64,000 bases of DNA from Dethiosulfovibrio peptidovorans DSM 11002 (GTDB taxonomy: Bacteria; Synergistota; Synergistia; Synergistales; Dethiosulfovibrionaceae): contig NZ_ABTR02000001.1 in NCBI RefSeq assembly GCF_000172975.1, positions 2,022,501 through 2,086,500 of the forward strand, written 5' to 3'. The position numbers were made by a program, and so were the translations under genes. Below the pieces are notes generated by a model. The model was not told the DNA's origin. It made no database searches and worked only from the letters and a program-made list of their open reading frames with translations. This document shows positions 735-53,255 of the stretch, in pieces (the stretch's first letter is position 1; every line of letters starts with the position of its first letter).

Positions 735-763
735 TTGCAAATCGGAGGATCGGCTGATAAAAT
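735..763 (+). promoter_or_regulatory. sigma-70 type promoter for tRNA-Leu
   Basis: TTGCAA (735-740) and TAAAAT (758-763) are separated by exactly 17 bp. Predicted transcription start is near 770, about 14 bp before the mature tRNA. The boxes match the TTGACA/TATAAT consensus at 4 of 6 and 5 of 6 positions. Assignment is by eye from position and spacing. Confidence 0.6.
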
Positions 764-783: not shown

Positions 784-870
784 GCCCGGGTGGCGGAATT
801 GGTAGACGCGCTAGATTCAGGTTCTAGTGGGCATTTGCCTGTAGGAGTTCGAGTCTCCTCCCGGGCACCA
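784..870 (+). tRNA. tRNA-Leu (anticodon CAG)
   Basis: An 87-nt class II tRNA with a genomically encoded CCA end. The acceptor arms GCCCGGG (784-790) and CCCGGGC pair perfectly. The D arm is GCG/CGC. The anticodon stem CTAGA/TCTAG encloses loop TTCAGGT, giving anticodon CAG (818-820), which reads CUG leucine codons. A long variable arm and a T arm with GTTCGAGTC are present. It stands alone between a tRNA-modification gene and rpoB, with a hairpin terminator 45 bp downstream. Confidence 0.97.
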
Positions 871-914: not shown

Positions 915-951
915 AGGTCGTATTGTGTCGTTGACATAATGCGACCTTTTT
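915..951 (+). terminator. intrinsic terminator hairpin between tRNA-Leu and rpoB
   Basis: Arms 915-929 (AGGTCGTATTGTGTC) and 933-947 (GACATAATGCGACCT) form a 15-bp stem with two G-U pairs and a 3-nt loop, followed by a T run (948-951 and more Ts after one G). It should end the tRNA-Leu transcript. The 3' arm also contains most of the -35 box of the rpoB promoter candidate, so terminator and promoter overlap. Confidence 0.8.
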
Positions 952-959
952 GTTATTTT
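931..959 (+). promoter_or_regulatory. candidate sigma-70 promoter for rpoBC, embedded in hairpin
   Basis: A perfect TTGACA (931-936) is followed after 17 bp by TATTTT (954-959; 4 of 6 consensus). Predicted start is near 966, leaving a leader of about 57 nt before rpoB. The -35 box lies in the loop and 3' arm of the 915-947 hairpin. The same layout occurs after rpoC. Confidence 0.55.
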
Positions 960-1022: not shown

Positions 1023-4000
1023 ATGGCCGAATTCGTACCCGTGGGCAAAAAGCGCAGCCGCCTCACCTTTGGGCGTGTTCGAGATCTAGTAGAGATCCCG
1101 GACATGGTCGAGGTGCAGCGAGATTCCTACCGAAGCTTCTTTCAGGAGGATGTCGATCCCGACAAAAGGGACAGCGTAGGACTTCAGGAACTTCTCGACG
1201 AGATTTTTCCGATTGAAAGTTACGACGGCTCCTTTGCCCTGGAGTTCGTCCGATACTATCTGGACAGGCCAGCCACTACACAGGAGGAGTCCCAGCAGAA
1301 GGACTGTACCTGGCATCGTCCCGTACGAGCCACCATAAGACTCGTAAACAGAAAGAACCTGGAGATCAAGGAAGAGGAGATCTTTCTGGGCGACTTTCCG
1401 ATGATGACAGAGAGGGGAACCTTCATCATCAACGGAACCGAAAGAGTCGTCGTCAACCAGCTTACCCGCTCCGCGGGAATCTACTTCAAGGTAGACTATT
1501 CAGCCCCCGTGGCCGAGACCTTCACCGCCAAGATAATCCCCGACAGAGGAGCCTGGCTGGAGTTCGCCATGGGAAGCGGAGATGCCCTCTACGTCAACAT
1601 AGACAACCGCAAGAAACTTCCTGGAACCCTTCTTCTCAAGGCCTTCGGAGTCTCATCCAACGAGGAGATGCTTCGTCTTTTCGGAGGGGAGATAGAGGAG
1701 GTCGATATATCGGAGGAACTTCTGATAGGCAGGCTTCTCGGTGAGACTGTCCTGGACGAGGGCGGGAACGTCGTGGTCCGCAAGGAGGAACGTATAGGGA
1801 AGGAAGAGCTCGAACGACTTTGGGACATCGGCCGAACGAGGGTGAAGGTCTGGAACGTCAACCCCGTTTTCGCCGCTACGTTGGAGAAGGATTTCACCAA
1901 CAACAGAGACGAGGCTATGTTGGAGATATTCCGCAGGCTTCGTCCTAACGACCCGGCCAGAATAGAGAACGCCAGAGAGTACATAGACAGCCTGTTCTTC
2001 GATTCCCGTCGTTATACGCTGGGTCGTGTCGGTCGTTACAAGCTCAACAGAAGGTTGAAGCTGGATCTGCCCGACAGAGAGTACCTGCTCACGATAGACG
2101 ACCTGGTCAGAATCGTCAAGGGAATAATTGTCTTAAGAGACACGGAAGAGCAGAGGGATGTAGTTTCTTTCCCCGACGTCACCGAGGAGTTTCCTGACGA
2201 TATCGACCATCTCGGCAACAGAAGAGTCCGTTCCGTAGGCGAGCTTCTTCAGAATCAGGTCAGAATAGGCCTTCTACGAATGGAGAGAATAGCCAAAGAG
2301 CGTATGACCACCGTGGCGGATCTCACCAAGGCAATGGCCAGGGACCTTATAAACGTCAGGCCCATATCGGCGGCACTCAGGGAGTTTTTCGGTTCGGGAC
2401 AGCTGTCTCAGTACATGGACCAGAACAATCCTTTGTCCGAACTGACCCACAGGCGGAGACTTTCCGCACTGGGTCCGGGTGGTCTTAGCAGAGAAAGAGC
2501 CGGCTTCGAGGCGAGAGACGTCCATTACACCCACTATGGTCGTATCTGCCCCATCGAAACTCCCGAGGGCCCCAATATCGGGTTGGTGACGTCTCTTTCG
2601 ACCTACTCCAAGGTTAACCAATACGGTTTCTTAGTAACCCCCCGTCGCCCCGTGGTAGAGGGTGTCGTTTCGTTGAATCCCGAGGATGTCGTCTACCTTG
2701 CGGCGGATGAGGAGGACAACTCCTACGTAGGAAGGGCTAATACCCCTTACGACGAGAGTACCGGCCGTCTTTCCGAGGAGTACTGCTACGCCCGTTACAG
2801 AGGGCGTATAGTCGAGGTGCCTCAGGATAAGATCGATTATCTGGACATATCTCCTAAGCAGATCGTCTCGGCCTCTACTGCTCTGATCCCTTTCCTGGAG
2901 CATGACGACGCCAATAGAGCCTTGATGGGGTCTAACATGCAGCGTCAGGCCGTCCCGCTTCTCCTTCCGGAGGCCCCGAGAGTCGGTACCGGCATGGAGG
3001 GTAGGATAGCAAAGGATTCAGGCTCCTGCGTGGTGGCTCCCGAGGACGGTGTGGTCACCTACGTAGACGCCGACAGAATAGAGATAAGAAGCGACCTGGG
3101 GGTATATCGTTCCATGTCCCTCCAGAAGTTCAAGAGATCCAACCAGGGCACCATCATCCATCAGAGGCCTATAGTCTCGAAGGGCGATGTCGTCTCCAAA
3201 GGCGAGATAATGGCCGATGGGCAGTCGGTGGATCAGGCGGAGCTGGCCCTTGGGCGTAATGTCCTTATAGCCTTTATCCCCTGGGAGGGGTATAACTACG
3301 AGGATGCCATCCTCCTCAGCGAGAGATTGGTAAAGGAGGATTTCTTCACCTCCATACACATAGAGGAATATGAGATGGACGCCAGGGATACCAAGCTCGG
3401 TCCGGAGGAGATAACCAGGGATATTCCGAACGTCGGAGAGGACGCACTTAAAGACCTCGACGAGTTCGGGGTAGTACGTGTCGGAGCCGAGGTCAATGCG
3501 GGGGATATTTTGGTAGGAAAGGTAACCCCCAAAGGAGAATCTGATCAGTCTCCGGAGGAAAAATTGCTCAGGGCTATCTTCGGCGAAAAAGCCAGAGAGG
3601 TCAGAGACACCTCCCTTCACGTTCCCCATGGAGCAAGAGGAAAGGTCGTAGCGGTCAAGAAGCTGAACAAGGACGAGAACAGCGACTCCTTGAGTCCCGG
3701 GGTCAACGAGGTCGTCAAGGTCTACGTGGCTCAGCTAAGAAAGATCACCGTCGGAGACAAAATGTCCGGACGTCACGGCAACAAGGGTGTCGTCTCCAGG
3801 ATCCTTCCCGTAGAGGATATGCCCTATCTTCCGGACGGTACCCCTGTGGATGTCTGCCTCAACCCCCTCGGGGTTCCGAGTCGAATGAATCTCGGACAGG
3901 TTCTCGAAACCATACTTGCCACCGTGGCAGTTGCCAACGATTGGCACGTAGCTACTCCGGTTTTCGAAGGAGCACAGGAAGAGGAGATCTACGATTTGCT

Positions 4001-4841
4001 CGATAAGCTCAGTCAGGAGAACCCCGACTATTCCACCCTGACCAGAGGCGGCACCATGCAGCTCATAGACGGCAGAACCGGAGAACCAATGGAATACAAG
4101 ACCACCGTTGGGCATATGTACATGCTCAAACTTAACCACTTGGTGGACGATAAACTGCACGCTCGATCTATAGGACCTTACAGTCTCATAACCCAGCAGC
4201 CTCTGGGCGGTAAGGCTCAGTTCGGAGGGCAGCGCTTCGGAGAGATGGAGGTCTGGGCTCTTCAGGGATACGGAGCTGCTCACGTTCTTCAGGAAATGCT
4301 GACGGTAAAATCCGACGATATCCACGGCCGACTCAAGACCTACGAGAAAATCGTAAAAGGTCAGAATCTGACCAGGCCGGGAGTTCCCGAGAGTTTCAAG
4401 GTTCTTGTAAAAGAGCTGGAAGGGTTGGGCTTAGGAGTCGATATAGAATACAACGACGGCACCATCGGTCCTCTCCTTCCCGACGAGGACGATGAACAGA
4501 GCAACTCTGCTCCTGTCCCCCAAAAGGCGGAGGCCGTTCCGGCCGTAGCTCCGGATGAGGCATCTGCTCCTACGCCAAAGGAGATGGAGGAGATGATCTT
4601 CGGCAACGAGGAAGCTAGCGTTAAAGAGAGTAAAATCTCTTATGCGGAGTCTACGGAAGCTCTCTCGGATAGTCCCACGTCCGAAAAGAAGAGTGGGACC
4701 TCCGACGAAGGGTCTAAGGAAGCTCTCTCGGATAGTTCCAAACCCGAGGAGGAGAGAAAGACCTCTAACGAAGAGTCTAACGAAGCTCTCTCGGATAGTT
4801 CCACAGTCGAGAACGATGATGTGAAAGGAGCTGACCGCTAA
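1023..4841 (+). CDS. rpoB: DNA-directed RNA polymerase subunit beta
   Basis: Catalytic beta subunit of RNA polymerase, 1272 aa. The rifampicin-pocket segment [17 protein letters not shown] lies near residue 460, with the usual D, H and S residues that go with drug sensitivity. [15 protein letters not shown] follows. [12 protein letters not shown] (near residue 910) and the C-terminal clamp segment [18 protein letters not shown] are intact. After the normal end of the fold come about 90 acidic, low-complexity residues, including three copies of a 21-residue repeat; most beta subunits lack this tail. The ATG at 1023 follows GGGAGG at a distance of about 11 nt. rpoC begins 2 bp after the stop. 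The rplKAJL genes often found upstream are not in this window. Confidence 0.98.
4620..4808 (+). repeat. 3 x 63-bp in-frame tandem repeat at the 3' end of rpoB
   Basis: Three diverged 63-bp units (4620-4682, 4683-4745, 4746-4808) encode 21-residue units at RpoB residues about 1200-1262. Each carries the core GAAGCTCTCTCGGATAGT (starting at 4656, 4719 and 4782), encoding EALSDS. The period is exact, so frame is kept. Confidence 0.85.
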
Positions 4842-4843
4842 CG

Positions 4844-7800
4844 ATGACCCGCCGCGAGATCGTCGGAGTCAGGGTACGTCTTGCCAGTCCTGGAGAGATA
4901 AGGGGACTTTCCACCGGAGAGGTCAAGAAACCCGAGACCATCAACTACCGGACCTTGAGGCCCGAGAAAGACGGCCTTTTCTGCGAGCGTATCTTCGGGC
5001 CCACTAAAAGCTTTGAATGCGCCTGCGGCAAGTATAAGAAAAGCGGTCCGAAATTCAAGGGCGTGATATGCGATCGATGCGGCGTGGAGGTAACGGATAA
5101 CCGCGTTCGTAGAGAGAGAATGGGGCACATCGAGCTGGCCGCCCCTGTCGTTCACATATGGTATCTCCGGGGTATCCCCAGTAGACTCAGTCTATTGCTT
5201 GGGACCGCCACGAAGATGCTGGAAAAGGTGGTCTACTTCGCTCCCATAAGAAAGAGGGAACCGGCCTTCAAGGTAGTCATAGAGGGCAAGAGGTCCGATC
5301 TCGCTAAGAGAGGAGACATCGTCTCCGAAAGCGAGGTCAGGCTTCATTGCCATTACGACCCGAAGTTCAAGGCAGAGGAAGCCTACAGGGTCGTCTCTGT
5401 TGACGATGTCCCGATCTCGGATGGCGACATAGTGTCGTCCGCTCAGATAAGTCGCTACAAGGCTGACTATGGCGACGAATCCTTTTCCGCCGAGCCTGCC
5501 TTTGTAGTGAAAGACCGCGGAGAGGGAGTCGAGATTGAGCTTGACTCGATCCTATCCGGAGATGAATATCGGTCGTTAAAAGAAGAAGGTCTGGATGTAA
5601 CGGTAGAGAGGGCCATGTCGGGCAACCAGGAGGGTTTTGTCGTCACGTCGGTTGCTAAGCTCCCATTTGCCAAGGGAGACGTTATATCCACCAGCGAGTT
5701 CAACCTCTTCCAGGAGCGCTATCCGGAACGTTTTACCGCGCAGCTTGAGACTGTTGTTGTTGAGGATCCCTGCTTTCTGGTGATAAACGGCAGCGAATCT
5801 CCCTTTGACGATGGCGACGTTATATTGGATAGAGAACAGTATCTCTGTAGTCACTACGACAAGAAATTTCGTGCCGGAATAGGCGCGGAAGGCGTAAGGG
5901 AGATGCTCGACACCCTGGACATGGATCATCTGGCCCAGCAACTCAGGGAAGAACTGTCCGAGACTTCCGGCCAGAAACGTAGGAAGCTGGTCAAGAGACT
6001 CCAGGTCGTAGAGGATTTTCGCAAGGGAGACTGCAACCCTCAGTCCATGGTGCTTGAGGTCTTGCCGGTCATTCCTCCGGACCTTCGTCCTATGGTGCAG
6101 CTCGATGGAGGTCGCTTTGCTACCTCAGACCTTAACGACCTGTACCGAAGGGTTATAAACAGAAACAACCGACTGAGAAAGCTTCAGGAGCTCAGGGCTC
6201 CGGAGATAATAGTCAGGAACGAAAAGAGGATGCTCCAGGAGTCGGTCGACGCACTTATCGACAACGGTCGCATGGGCAAGGCGGTGCTGGGGGCGGGCAA
6301 TCGTCCCCTGAAGAGTCTCTCCGACCTGCTGAGAGGCAAGAAGGGACGTTTCCGTCAGAATCTGCTCGGTAAGCGAGTGGATTACTCCGGTCGTTCTGTC
6401 ATAACGATAGGGCCCAATTTAAAGATATACCAGTGCGGTCTTCCCAAGCAGATGGCTCTGGAGCTGTTCAAGCCCTTCGTAATACAGAAACTGGTGGACC
6501 TAGGCATAGCTCCGAACGTCAAGAGCGGCAAAAGGATGATCGAAAGAGGCAAGGAGGAAATCTGGGCCATTCTGGAGGAGATCATAAAGGATCACCCTGT
6601 GATGTTGAACAGAGCTCCCACGCTTCACAGACTGGGCATCCAGGCTTTCGAGCCTGTTTTGATGGAGGGTAAGGCCATACGGCTTCACCCCCTGGTCTGT
6701 ACCGCTTTCAACGCCGACTTCGACGGAGACCAGATGGCAGTACACGTGCCTCTCTCCGTGGAGGCTCAGGCGGAGGCCAGGATGCTCATGCTCTCCGCAA
6801 ACAACATACTTTCCCCCGCCAGTGGAAAGCCTATAGTGGCTCCCTCGCAGGACATAATATTGGGGATATACTATCTGACCAATCTCAGAGAAGGTATGAC
6901 CGGAGAGGGCAAATACTTTGACAGCTTTGACGACGTCTTAACCGCTCTGGATCACGGAATTGTGCACGTGAACGCCAGAATTCGCATGAGATGGAACCAC
7001 GAATGGGGAAACTGGAAAGATAAGGTCGATCAATGGGGAGTCTCCTTCCTGGACGAAAGCGGAAAATGGTTCGAGACCTCGCCGGGAAGGGTTCTTTTCA
7101 ACAGCTATCTTCCTAAAAAACTTCGATTCCTTGACGGTCAGCTGGGAAAGAAGGACCTCAGCAGGTTGCTTGACCTCGGCTACAACGAGGTCTCCCGTCA
7201 GGAAATGGTCGAGATGTTGGACTCCATAAAGGGGCTCGGCTATCACTGGGCTACCTTGAGCGGTATAAGCTTCTGTGTCACCGACGTCGTAATACCCAAG
7301 GAAAAAGAGGACGTGGTCTCCACTTCTCTGGTAGAGGACGACGAGATAAGAAACCAGTACGATATGGGGGTCCTCTCGGAGGACGAATACCTCCTTCAAA
7401 AGGAGACCCTGTGGTCCAAGGCGGCCGCCGATGTCGGAAATGCAATTCTTAACCACATGGGGCACGATAATCCAGTCAGAATGATGGTCGACTCCGGAGC
7501 CAGAGGAAGTAGAGGACAGCTTGCTCAGATGGCGGGGATCCGAGGCCTTATGGCCGACCCCACCGGGCGAATAATAGACTATCCCATCACAACCAACTTC
7601 CGTGAGGGGATGAACATGTTGGAGTATTTCATCTCCACTCACGGAGCCAGAAAAGGTCTGGCCGATACCGCCCTTCGTACGGCCAAGTCGGGGTATCTGA
7701 CCCGTCGTCTCGTCGATGTCTCTCAGGACGTCATAATAACAGAGGATGACTGCGGAACGGAGAAGGGTGTCAAGATAGAGCCTTTGGAAAGCGACGGCAA

Positions 7801-9826
7801 GACGGTCATCCCTATCAGCGAGAGGATAGCCGGTAGAACGTCCCTGAACGATGTCAACGATCCGGAGACCGGTGACCTGATAGTCGGGGCTGGCGAGATC
7901 ATAACCCCGGATCTGGCTTCCCGAATAGATTCCTGCGGATTCAAGGAGATCTGGGTAAGAAGCCCCATGACCTGCACAACCAGACACGGTATATGCCAGA
8001 AGTGCTACGGTGTTGACCTAGCTACCCGTTCCGTCGTCGACATCGGAGAGGCTGTCGGGGTCGTGGCAGCCCAGTCTATCGGTGAGCCTGGAACCCAGCT
8101 TACCATGAGGACTTTCCATACCGGAGGAGTTAGGATTACCGGTGAGGACATCACCCAGGGACTTCCAAGGATAGAGCAGCTCTTCGAGGCCCGTCGTCCC
8201 AAAAAAGTCTCCGTCCTTGCCGGTGTGGACGGCAAGGTGATCGAAATTCGGGAGATGGAGGGCAAACGCAAGGTAATAATAACCTCCGAGGAGCCCGGGA
8301 ACGAACAGAAGATCACCCACACCATCCCTTCGTCGCAGAACCTTCTGGTCGAAGAGGGCGAGCCTGTCTACCGTTCGACCAAGCTGACCGAGGGCTATAT
8401 CGATCCTCAGCAGCTTCTCGAGGTGTTGGGGCAGGAAGAGGTTCAGAAATACCTGGTGGACAGCATTCAGGAGGTCTACCGCTCTCAGGGCGTCTCCATC
8501 AACAATAAACATATAGAGGTAATCCTCAGAAAGGTCGCTCCTGTTAACAGACTGAGAGTCGTCGATGAAGGAGACACTGCATTCGTGGCAGGAGATCTGG
8601 TATGGGCCGGTGACGTGGAGGCCGAGGAAAAGGTTATACTGGAGGAAAACGAGAACAACATACACGAGGCGGTCAAGATCTTCTCCGGTAAGATATTCCA
8701 GGGAATTGCCGGAGCCGTTAAGACGGATCTGAGCAAGAAAAAAAGCCAGCCCATGGACGAAGAGCTCATAAGATCCATCCTGACCCCTGGAGCACCTGTT
8801 ACGGAGATAGACGTGACAGATGAGGTTGGCCCCCTTAAAATCATTGCGGGAGAGGCCTCTTTTAGAAAAGAACTCAAGGGATTCGAGCTTATAGATCCCT
8901 TCGAGGCCAGAGACGGAAAGGTCGTCGAGTCTGGGCAGCCTCTTACCCTTGGCCAGCTGTCGGTGATAACCTCTCAGGAACCTCGGCCCTTGAGGGTCAG
9001 GGACGTGGAGGTAATAGAGAAACTGGTGGATTCGGCCTATCTTGCTGAGGACGTCTTGGTGGACGGTCAAGCCGTCGCCCTCAAGGACCACATGGTCACG
9101 GAGGAAGTCGCTGCGTTGTTGAGGATAAACGACGTGTCCTCCGTCAAGGTATGGAAGGGAATCGAGAGAATCAGCGTCTCCGACGCAATGCAGGAAAGGC
9201 TCTTGGCCAGGATATGGGGTAAACCTCTTAAGCAGGCCATAGATTCCCAGGGCAATGCGCTATCCTCAAAGCCTCAGCTTGTAGATGGTAGCGTGGTTCG
9301 AGGAATAATAGACGGAGAGCTGGCCGCCATCTCCATAGGTGAGGATATAATAACGAGGGATAACATCCTCAAAGACGTCATAGCCGATACCTGTTATGGA
9401 AAGGTTCTGCTGGACAGGGTAGAGGTTGACGGCAGGGTTGCGGCCGACTCCGGTCAGGAGATAAATAAATCGCTTCTGGACGAGCTGGTCGCAGCTGATC
9501 CTGAGGAATTGGTCATAAGACCTATTCACTGTAACAGTGAGACCAGAAACATAGTCTCCAGGGTTACCTTTGTTCGTAAGCTAAGGCAGAACCCTGAATG
9601 TCGAAAGTTTATCCATGGAATAACTAAGGCCGCTCTGGCCACGGACAGCTTCCTGAGTGCCGCTTCCTTCCAGCAGACCGCTCAGGTGCTTGCGGGGGCT
9701 GCAGTCCGTTGTCAGGTCGATAACCTCGTAGGCTTGAAGGAGAACGTGATAATCGGTCACCTCATCCCGGCTGGAACGGGAGTGGAGGATTTCCGTAAGA
9801 TCGCGGTCAAGGAAAAAGAGTCCTAA
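4844..9826 (+). CDS. rpoC: DNA-directed RNA polymerase subunit beta'
   Basis: Catalytic beta' subunit, 1660 aa, long compared with about 1200 in Bacillus and 1400 in E. coli. The N-terminal zinc site (CACGKYK...CDRC) lies near residues 60-80. The active-site loop [12 protein letters not shown] is near residue 625. The second cysteine set (DDCG, then [11 protein letters not shown]) is near 970-1055. Residues about 150-345 form an insertion in the clamp region, as in Thermus and Thermotoga enzymes. It holds at least four copies of a pattern beginning G-D-[IV]-[VI] and ending with Y-x(3-4)-F-x-A. The gene follows rpoB by 2 bp and ends 27 bp before a long hairpin. Confidence 0.98.
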
Positions 9827-9853
9827 AAACGAGTAATCTTTCCAAATAAAGCT

Positions 9854-9891
9854 CGACCTGGTGCTATGTTTCTTGACATAGCACCAGGTCG
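9854..9891 (+). terminator. perfect 16-bp hairpin after rpoC
   Basis: CGACCTGGTGCTATGT (9854-9869) and ACATAGCACCAGGTCG (9876-9891) are perfect inverted repeats with a 6-nt loop. The following TTGTTATCATT is only a weak U tract, so termination of rpoBC may be partial. The hairpin overlaps the -35 box of the next promoter, as at the rpoB 5' side. Confidence 0.65.
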
Positions 9892-9901
9892 TTGTTATCA
9901 T
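9873..9901 (+). promoter_or_regulatory. strong sigma-70 promoter for the str/S10 cluster, embedded in hairpin
   Basis: TTGACA (9873-9878, 6 of 6) and TATCAT (9896-9901, 5 of 6) are 17 bp apart. Predicted start is near 9908, about 22 nt before the L7Ae-like gene. The -35 box sits in the loop and 3' arm of the hairpin at 9854-9891. Confidence 0.7.
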
Positions 9902-9929
9902 TACTCGGTGCCTATGCTCAGGAGGTTTT

Positions 9930-10190
9930 ATGATGAACGTAGCGGAGTTGACCGAGGGCAGACGATTTGTGGGTTTCAAGCAGGTCCGTCGCGAACTTTT
10001 GAGGGGCAATGTCCGTAAAGTCTTCATCGCTGCCGATGCCGACGTTTTGATGATTCAGGAGATAACCCATATATGTTCCGAACGGGGTGTCCCGGTGGAA
10101 ACGGTCGACTCCATGGCATCTCTGGGTAGGGCTTGCGTCATAGATAGAGGCGCAGCTACGGCGGCTTTGCAGCGGGACGACCGCTGTTAA
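9930..10190 (+). CDS. L7Ae-family RNA-binding protein (YbxF/RplGB-like)
   Basis: Small (86 aa) L7Ae/L30e/S12e-fold protein; the family binds kink-turn RNA, and Bacillus YbxF associates with ribosomes. Visible family features are a basic N-terminal helix (GFKQVRRELLRGNVRKVFIAADAD read in sections) and the C-terminal segment VPVETVDSMASLGRACVIDRGAA, with Leu-Gly-Arg-Ala before the last strand. The position between rpoC and rpsL matches Bacillus. Two ATGs (9930 and 9933) follow AGGAGG; the second has slightly better spacing. It is the first gene of the str cluster. The exact RNA target cannot be read from sequence. Confidence 0.88.
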   Translation: MMNVAELTEGRRFVGFKQVRRELLRGNVRKVFIAADADVLMIQEITHICSERGVPVETVDSMASLGRACVIDRGAATAALQRDDRC

Positions 10191-10226: not shown

Positions 10227-10601
10227 GTGCCAACAATCAATCAGTTAGTCCGGAAAGGTCGGAGCGAGAAGGTCAAGAAATCCGATTCCCCGGCGTTGCA
10301 GAATTGTCCGGCGCGGAGAGGGGTCTGTACGCGAGTCTATACGATCACTCCGAAGAAGCCCAACTCGGCTTTGAGGAAAGTTGCCCGTGTGCGTCTGACC
10401 AACGGTATCGAGGTGACCTCATATATACCGGGAGTCGGTCATAATCTGCAGGAGCACTCTGTCGTCCTGGTCAGGGGTGGTCGAGTCAAGGACCTTCCCG
10501 GTGTGCGCTATCACATCGTACGCGGTACCCTTGATTGCGGCGGTGTCGAAGGTCGTCGTCGGAGCCGTTCCAAATACGGTGCCCGTCGTCCTAAGTCCTA
10601 A
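10227..10601 (+). CDS. rpsL: 30S ribosomal protein S12
   Basis: Decoding-centre protein of the small subunit, 124 aa. It starts with GTG (10227), six bases after a strong GGAAGGAGGT site. [11 protein letters not shown] and [14 protein letters not shown] are intact, including the two lysines that are commonly changed in streptomycin-resistant mutants, so a sensitive-type sequence is expected. The position between the L7Ae-like gene and rpsG is standard. Confidence 0.98.
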
Positions 10602-10622: not shown

Positions 10623-11093
10623 ATGCCGCGTAAAGGGCATGTGAGAAAGAGAGATTCGTTGCTGGATACCAGGTTCGGAAATCTCGCTGTCACTAAGTTC
10701 ATCAATAAGGTCATGCTCGACGGTAAGAAAAGTACCGCCGAGAAGATAGTCTACGAAGCTCTCGATAAAGCCGCCGAAAAACTGGGCGTGGAGCCTATCG
10801 AGGTCTTCAACAAGGCCATGGAGAACGTCAAGCCTCTCGTCGAGGTCCGTTCCCGCAGGGTCGGTGGTGCGACCTATCAGGTCCCAGTGGAGGTTGCGCC
10901 CGCAAGGGCTCAGGCTCTCGCTATCCGTTGGATAATCTCCTACTCTAGGGGCAAGAAAGGCATGCCCATGAACGAGAGGCTCTCCAGGGAGTTTATCGAT
11001 GCCTACAAGGGCGAGGGTAGCTCCATCAAGAAGAGGGAAGATACCCATAAGATGGCAGAGGCCAACAGGGCCTTCGCTCACTACCGTTGGTAG
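10623..11093 (+). CDS. rpsG: 30S ribosomal protein S7
   Basis: Primary 16S rRNA-binding protein that nucleates the small-subunit head, 156 aa, the normal length. The start [11 protein letters not shown], internal [25 protein letters not shown] (read in sections) and C-terminal [20 protein letters not shown] are typical. A GGAGG site precedes the ATG. The 50-bp gap to fusA contains a small inverted repeat (TGACGA...TCGTCA) but no clear terminator or promoter. Confidence 0.98.
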
Positions 11094-11143
11094 CACTTGA
11101 CGATATGTTCGTCAGTCGACGTTACGCGTCCTAGGTGATAATT

Positions 11144-13210
11144 ATGGCTGGAATGGATCTACATAAAATAAGAAACATAGGAATAGCTGCGCATATAGAC
11201 GCAGGTAAGACGACCACCACCGAGCGTATCCTGTTCTACACCGGGCGCAACTACAAGATCGGTGAGGTTCACGAGGGCGCGGCCACCATGGACTGGATGG
11301 AGCAGGAACGTGAGAGAGGAATAACCATCACTTCCGCTGCTACCACATGTCAGTGGAAGGGCCATAATATCAATATAATTGATACACCCGGGCACGTGGA
11401 CTTTACTGTCGAGGTCGAGCGTTCCATGAGGGTCCTCGACGGAGCCATATCGGTCTTCTGTGCCGTAGGCGGGGTCGAGCCCCAGTCCGAGACCGTGTGG
11501 CGTCAGGCCGATAAATATCATGTTCCTCGCATAGCCTTCGTCAACAAGATGGACCGGGTTGGAGCCAATTTTCTCACCGTGGTCGATCAGCTGAAGGAAA
11601 GGCTGGGTGCTACCGCAGTCCCCCTTCAGCTTCCGATAGGGTCCGAGGAGGACTTTCAAGGAGTCGTCGATCTCATAGAGATGAAGGCGATACTCTTTTC
11701 CGACGTGATGGGTGCCGAGCCCACCATAGAGGAGATTCCGGCGGACATGATGGAAGAGGCAAAACTCTACAGAGAGTCCATGATAGAGTGCCTGTCCGAT
11801 TTTGACGAGGAGATAATGGCCCTCTTCCTCGAGGGAGAGGAAGTCTCCAACGACATGATCAGGTCTGCTATCAGAAAGAGCACCATCTCTCTAGATATCG
11901 TCCCGGCAATGTGCGGAACGGCTTTCAAAAATAAAGGGGTTCAGCCCCTTCTGGACGCCGTCGTAGCATATCTTCCAAGCCCCATGGATCTTCCCGCTAT
12001 AGTGGGGGTTGATCCTGACGATGGATCGGAGCTGGAGAGGCACGCCAACGAAGACGAACCCGTATCCGCGCTGGCTTTTAAAATAGCGGTGGACCCCTTC
12101 GTAGGTAAACTGACATTCTGCAGGATATACTCGGGAGTTCTTAAGTCGGGGACATCTATTTACAATCCGACCAGTCGCAAGAGGGAGCGTATCGGCAGGA
12201 TTCTGCAGATGCACGCCAACAAAAGAACCGACATAGACGAAGCCGGAGCTGGTATGATAGTGGCTCTTCCGAGCCTCAAGAACACCAGGACTGGCGATAC
12301 CCTCTGTGACGAAAAGAACCCGATCGTTCTCGAGAATCTCGAGTTCCCCGAGCCAGTCATTTCTCTGGCGGTCGAGCCCATAACCCAAAGCGACAAAGAC
12401 AAGCTCTCCAAGGGGCTTATCGCTCTGGCCGAAGAGGATCCCACATTCGTGGTCCGCAACGACGAGGAGACCGGTCAGACCGTTATCTCTGGAATGGGCG
12501 AGCTTCACCTCGACATCATCGTCGATCGTCTCAAGAGGGAATTCAAGGTCGGGGTCAACGTCGGTCGTCCTCAGGTCGCCTACAGAGAGGCCATTACTAA
12601 AGCGGTCTCCCAGGTCCAGGGTAAGTTCGTTCGTCAGAGCGGTGGTCGCGGGCAGTATGGAGACGTGGTTATCGACATGGAGCCGCTTGAGGAATGCAAG
12701 GGTTTTGTCTTCGAGGACAAGATCGTCGGAGGAGTCATCCCAAGAGATTACATACCTGCGGTACAGAAGGGTATAGAGGAAGCCATCACCAACGGTATAC
12801 TCGGAGGCTTTCCTGTAATAGGCGTGAAGGTCTCGCTGGTTTACGGAAGCTACCACGATGTCGACAGTTCCGAGATGGCGTTCAAGATCGCCGCATCTAT
12901 GGCGTTCAAGGAAGCCATGAGAAAAGCCGGGCCGACTCTTATGGAGCCGGTGATGTTCGTGGAGGTCGTGACTCCCGAGGAATACGTCGGAGATGTCATG
13001 GGAGATCTTTCCTCCCGTCGTGGAAGGGTCGAGGGCATGGAGATCCGTGGTAACGCCAGGGCTATAAAAGCATACGTCCCCCTTGGTGAGATGTTCGGAT
13101 ACGCCACTGACGTAAGGAGCAAAACCTCTGGTCGAGCCACCTACACCATGCAATTTGATCACTATGAGGCCGTCCCGGCAAGCGTTGCCGAGGAAATCCT
13201 CAAGAAATAG
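11144..13210 (+). CDS. fusA: elongation factor G
   Basis: Translocation GTPase, 688 aa from the ATG at 11144. G1 is [15 protein letters not shown]3 is DTPGHVDFT and G4 is NKMDR, followed by domains II-V with [12 protein letters not shown] in domain IV. A GTG at 11135 would add three residues. I prefer 11144 because AGGTG at 11133-11137 is then correctly spaced. It lies between rpsG and tuf as in the classical str operon. Confidence 0.97.
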
Positions 13211-53218: not shown

Positions 53219-53255
53219 AAAGAGGCGGGAGGGAGCTCCCTCCCGCCTCTTTTTT
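53219..53255 (+). terminator. strong intrinsic terminator after flagellin
   Basis: AAAGAGGCGGGAGGGAG (53219-53235) and CTCCCTCCCGCCTCTTT (53236-53252) are a perfect 17-bp inverted repeat, ending in a run of T to 53255. The innermost bases must open to form a loop. It is typical for a very highly expressed gene. Confidence 0.93.

Follow-up and report, generated by a model that had tools for sequence, protein, structure and literature searches.

Why does a long inverted repeat lie across the -35 box of a promoter, and why at both ends of rpoBC? These questions arise from a window of 64,000 nucleotides, the whole stretch of Dethiosulfovibrio peptidovorans DNA that was analysed, in which the genes run in the order tRNA-Leu, rpoB, rpoC, an L7Ae-like gene, rpsL, rpsG and fusA. 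An earlier, sequence-only reading had suggested that the two repeats around rpoBC form a deliberate regulatory unit; our comparisons agree with this view and find the unit conserved. A search of the window with Rfam matched tRNA and nothing else. The parts of the locus are as follows.

735 to 763, plus strand: promoter-like site TTGCAA-17-TAAAAT, 5′ of tRNA-Leu (consensus scan).
784 to 870, plus strand: tRNA-Leu, anticodon cag (ARAGORN; Rfam).
915 to 947, plus strand: probable terminator hairpin of the element between tRNA-Leu and rpoB, arms 915-929 and 933-947 (fold, covariation, top genome match of the covariance model).
931 to 936, plus strand: predicted -35 of the rpoB promoter, TTGACA, in the loop and 3′ arm (TTGAC is invariant in the rpoB-element alignment).
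948 to 959, plus strand: T-rich putative terminator tail overlapping an extended -10 (TGT 951-953, TATTTT 954-959).
1023 to 4841, plus strand: rpoB.
4844 to 9826, plus strand: rpoC.
9854 to 9891, plus strand: hairpin of the element between rpoC and the str operon, 16 perfect pairs (17 with a G-U); probable rpoBC terminator.
9873 to 9878, plus strand: predicted -35 of the str promoter, TTGACA, in the loop and 3′ arm (kept in relatives).
9892 to 9901, plus strand: weak T-rich tail (5 T in 8) overlapping an extended -10 (TGT 9893-9895, TATCAT 9896-9901).
9906 to 9911, plus strand: CGGTGC motif at the expected transcription start, putative +1 at about 9908 (motif recurs in relatives).
9930 to 10190, plus strand: L7Ae-like (ybxF-type) gene, first of the str operon (Pfam PF01248; NCBIfam L7ae-like below cut-off).
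10227 to 10601, plus strand: rpsL (S12).
10623 to 11093: rpsG, after rpsL.
11135 to 13210: fusA, after rpsG.

The arms of the rpoC-str copy, at 9854-9869 and 9876-9891, match in 16 of 16 pairs, exactly as first described; counting one G-U, the stem has 17 pairs and a loop of 4. TTGACA (9873-9878), the 17-nt spacer and TATCAT (9896-9901) likewise proved exact, the spacing falling within the 16-18 nt of sigma-70-type promoters. A TG one base 5′ of the -10, absent from the sequence-only reading, makes this an extended -10 (TGT-TATCAT), and the predicted str promoter has 11 of 12 consensus matches plus the TG. The RNA hairpin is stable, as in an intrinsic terminator, with -31.6 kcal/mol (z about -9). 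The fold of the region 9820-9935 reached z = -6.2 against dinucleotide shuffles, none of 200 being as good. The U tract had been called poor; it is weak, though present (TTGTTATC, with 5 T in 8), and its terminator tail score is 3.9 versus 5.5 for the rpoB copy. An outer inverted repeat, CGAGTAAT at 9830-9837 and ATTACTCG at 9900-9907, was rejected. It is lost in a sister species, G001 (CGAATAAT / ATTACCCG), and is therefore probably due to chance.

The companion element before rpoB is real, with its hairpin at 915-947, TTGACA at 931-936 and TATTTT at 954-959. Two G-U pairs occur in the stem, a good T tract (7 of 8 T) comes after it, and the RNA hairpin is again stable (-24.5 kcal/mol, z about -5.8). 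Its neighbour is tRNA-Leu (784-870), not the ribosomal protein gene that had been supposed. CGACC and GGTCG had been described as common to both copies at the outer part of the arms. Both are indeed present, but exchanged: in the rpoB copy GGTCG belongs to the 5′ arm and CGACC to the 3′ arm, and in the rpoC copy the two trade places. Because the arms are swapped and relatives lack the motif, the resemblance looks like coincidence, and we discarded it. What the two copies truly have in common is the position of TTGACA relative to the stem, along with the extended -10.

We consider it probable (roughly 0.8) that the element is an intrinsic terminator fused to a promoter, joining two operons. Polymerase coming from rpoBC would transcribe 9854-9891, the hairpin would form in the RNA, and the U-rich stretch that follows would release some or most of the rpoBC transcript. 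The same DNA would serve as the str promoter, with the -35 in the loop and the first part of the 3′ arm, the spacer in the remainder of that arm and the extended -10 in the tail. Because str transcription is expected to start near 9908, 3′ of the hairpin, the hairpin would not be carried on the str mRNA. The copy at 915-959, with its better tail, would act likewise between tRNA-Leu and rpoBC, stopping transcription from the promoter-like site at 735-763. As an outcome, the tRNA, rpoBC and str units would be controlled separately, and the amount of read-through would depend on the terminator, which is expected to be strong ahead of rpoB and weaker ahead of str. A direct coupling of the upstream stop to the downstream start is possible. 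The support is sequence-based: anatomy, covariation, strand asymmetry at the rpoB copy, conservation of place and a link to upstream transcription. Sequence and covariation indicate that the terminator of the upstream unit and the promoter of the downstream unit share bases; actual termination and initiation, their efficiencies and any coupling are what we infer from this.

Within the genome, a long hairpin covers the -35 at two of 84 TTGACA/-10 sites, both at rpoBC (scores 17 and 15), in a count that takes in exact TTGACA promoters and covariance-model matches only. Three other sites score 12, and none of 1680 shuffled promoter contexts reached 16 pairs. It had been proposed to look for enrichment of such hairpins at strong promoters throughout the genome; as only 2 of 84 consensus promoters show the design, this expectation failed and a general promoter architecture was rejected. 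A covariance model built from rpoB elements only, the rpoC element playing no part, returned the rpoC element as the second-best match in the 2.58 Mb genome. Weaker matches (713631, 1591848, 1398712 and others) were hairpins or ordinary terminators without TTGACA and were set aside.

Two other palindromes were noted. At locus L217 (G000:C1, about 1926126), the palindrome GTGTCAAG-8-CTTGACAC includes the -35 of a promoter that precedes a gene whose translation reads as YlxM-like. Since the gene on the other side is divergent, the palindrome does not separate co-directional genes as a terminator would; an operator or a pair of divergent -35s is possible. Within the window, 53219-53252 is a perfect 34-bp palindrome (AAAGAGGCGGGAGGGAGCTCCCTCCCGCCTCTTT), probably a bidirectional terminator.

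On the rpoB side, 43 of 55 distinct promoter contexts (35 of 44 genera) folded below the 1% null level. In a MAFFT alignment of 27 rpoB elements, 94% of cells were paired and 12 of 14 pairs had changed on both sides; the alignment includes related sequences, and its cell counts are not independent events. Covariation was 0.707; shuffles gave 0.284, and no slid control exceeded 0.23. Little or no change was seen in TTGAC, the T tract or the extended -10, the stem varying by paired substitutions. With a scoring neutral between the two mismatches, G:U outnumbered A:C by 80:4, or 67:3 with one stem per genus. That these stems tolerate G:U and almost never A:C points to the plus-strand transcript, not a DNA palindrome, as the selected molecule. 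In 103 of 108 genomes from Synergistota, the covariance model's best genome-wide match lay just 5′ of rpoB. The tails at rpoB had a median of 6 T in 8. The hairpin was present in 35 of 39 contexts with an upstream tRNA-Leu versus 8 of 16 without (Fisher p = 0.003); in most of these 8, another promoter-like sequence feeds the hairpin from upstream. Genus g11 keeps the tRNA and the promoter, and the hairpin is absent.

Several further features of the rpoB region were seen. At five loci of family f4 (L301, L303, L311, L313 and L314), tRNA-Leu was not found before rpoB. A strong promoter-like TTGACA with a -10 nearby (e.g. CATAAT) lies upstream of the fused element at the f4 loci; its product would be no more than a short leader RNA that stops at the hairpin. 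The rpoB promoters share TTCGTCA 3′ of the -10. The rpoB ribosome binding site of many relatives (e.g. L071 and L084, just before the ATG) forms a short hairpin, AGGGAGG-TCGTNNCTCCCATG, in which the Shine-Dalgarno sequence could be covered; this hairpin is not kept in the window (GGGAGGTCGTCAGCCTAATG).

Where str follows rpoC, a promoter TTGAC(A)-17/18-TGnTAnnAT with a CGGTGC-like start region is almost always there. Hairpins recur over or against its -35: by pairing score a stem was found in 30 contexts from 19 genera, and the strict energy cut-off was passed by 25 of 52 contexts (16 genera). These stems are unrelated between genera (GGGGCGTGCTAA in g3, AACCGGGGAGGCCCC in g9, GGGAGATGTCAAG in g10, GCGGAAGACGCGTGT in g56), many are short or bulged, and the tails have a median of 5 T in 8. 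The ratio of G:U to A:C was 22:9, and 11:7 by genus, which is not significant. The promoter is kept and the hairpin absent or weak in g4, g12, g14, g15 and most of f10; G006, of the same genus as D. peptidovorans, also keeps the str promoter and not the stem. Thus, the stem of the rpoC copy is recurrent but dispensable. The sequence-only reading had named as its refutation that relatives keep the boxes and not the stems. This outcome did not occur at the rpoB copy. At the rpoC copy the result was mixed: the promoter is near-universal if str follows, and several genera as well as G006 have no hairpin or a very weak one. When no str promoter follows rpoC, most genomes show a separate hairpin terminator there, usually with a T tract; in a few genomes (g29, g32 and g35), the sequence read after rpoC showed no clear terminator.

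Together, the tRNA-Leu association, the separate terminators where str is absent and the T-rich tails favour termination. The hairpins look like intrinsic terminators, and the fused arrangement is kept across much of Synergistota while the hairpin letters keep changing. Among the options originally offered, a terminator or partial-termination device fits best.

Two observations concern the str start region. After rpoC in L038 (G017, genus g7), an inverted repeat is centred on the -10 (CACCCGGTCATTGCTATGATGACCGGGTG), not the -35. The CGGTGC-like motif (CTCGGTGC, CTTGGTGC, CCCGGTGC) is conserved at the expected str start across the order; it and TTCGTCA are possibly start-site or growth-control signals.

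The coincidence of tail and -10 means that release would fall within a few bases of the promoter. This speaks for termination-coupled re-initiation, in which polymerase released at the tail would stay on the DNA over the -10 and restart from the fused promoter, str output rising with rpoBC transcription. Retention of polymerase after intrinsic termination and nearby restart have been shown in vitro, on templates other than these natural elements (PMC6978322, PMC6978380). Such recycling would offer a way for a terminator to feed a promoter beside it; single-molecule work suggests this to be possible, and the authors propose a coupling of neighbouring genes (PMC6978322). The register is also fixed, the 3′ arm beginning two bases into TTGACA in 32 of 43 rpoB stems. 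However, the same would follow from lock-in, because few changes are tolerated in a base that belongs to both signals, and several genera keep the promoter without the hairpin. We regard re-initiation as unlikely.

With its perfect duplex of 16-17 bp and its weak tail, the rpoC copy might also be a hairpin recognised by RNase III or stabilising a 3′ end. The rpoBC RNA would then read into str and be cut or protected at the duplex, not terminated. E. coli rplL-rpoB, where an RNA processing site occurs together with an attenuator, provides a precedent. The proper T tails of the rpoB copies and the short or bulged rpoC stems of many relatives argue against this explanation, which we find rather improbable.

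A DNA-level role, with the repeat as the site of a regulator or as a cruciform that extrudes in supercoiled DNA and hides the -35, would account for a palindrome that is perfect over the -35 in D. peptidovorans and for the small G:U excess per genus at the rpoC copy (11:7). However, the stems being unrelated between genera, no conserved half-site of a protein operator was found. The strong preference for G:U over A:C at the rpoB copy and the association of the hairpin with upstream transcription also make a DNA-level role very unlikely. The same differences between stems and the ratio of 80:4 count against the protein or sigma-competition site suggested in the sequence-only reading; a dedicated binding protein is not indicated. 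An ordinary promoter with a chance palindrome might explain why some relatives keep the promoter and miss the hairpin, but it is hardly credible given 2 of 84 genome promoters, both at rpoBC, covariation across the order and 103 of 108 best model matches at rpoB, and for the rpoB copy it is already contradicted.

The fused terminator-promoter resembles an inter-operon overlap (operon concatenation) in Salmonella, in which the terminator of one operon overlaps the next promoter at junctions within this same cluster of RNA polymerase and ribosomal genes. At tufB-secE, such an overlap is reported to be important for expression and fitness. The junctions of Synergistota are different ones (tRNA-Leu to rpoB and rpoC to str) and belong to another phylum. 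Here the loop and 3′ arm would hold the -35, the 3′ arm would also form the spacer, and the tail would be the -10, with the hairpin wholly upstream of the start. At E. coli nusG-rplK, as read from the sequence, terminator and promoter overlap in a different register: a -10-like TACAAT coincides with the loop, and the T tract comes after it. Given this difference, the Synergistota form would be a new variant of the operon-joining overlap. At E. coli rplL-rpoB, too, a hairpin just before rpoB is generally known to tune rpoBC against neighbouring genes. However, our scan found no strong consensus promoter fused to it, and tRNA-Leu precedes rpoB in Synergistota, not rplKAJL as in E. coli. For the E. 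coli junction, PMC5371410 cites Barry et al. 1980. Published promoter or terminator maps of Synergistota were not among the matches listed in our literature search.

In conclusion, the two elements would carry the overlap of terminator and promoter, known from enterobacteria, into a distant phylum. The hairpin itself, as compensatory changes in dozens of genera show, is under selection, the promoter boxes staying fixed. The many natural variants with and without the hairpin offer material for testing whether termination of one operon promotes initiation of its neighbour, and they bear on how RNA polymerase and ribosomal genes may be balanced without a shared transcript. If re-initiation were true, rpoBC and str would be linked by a hand-over of polymerase, not by read-through, in an arrangement kept across a bacterial order.
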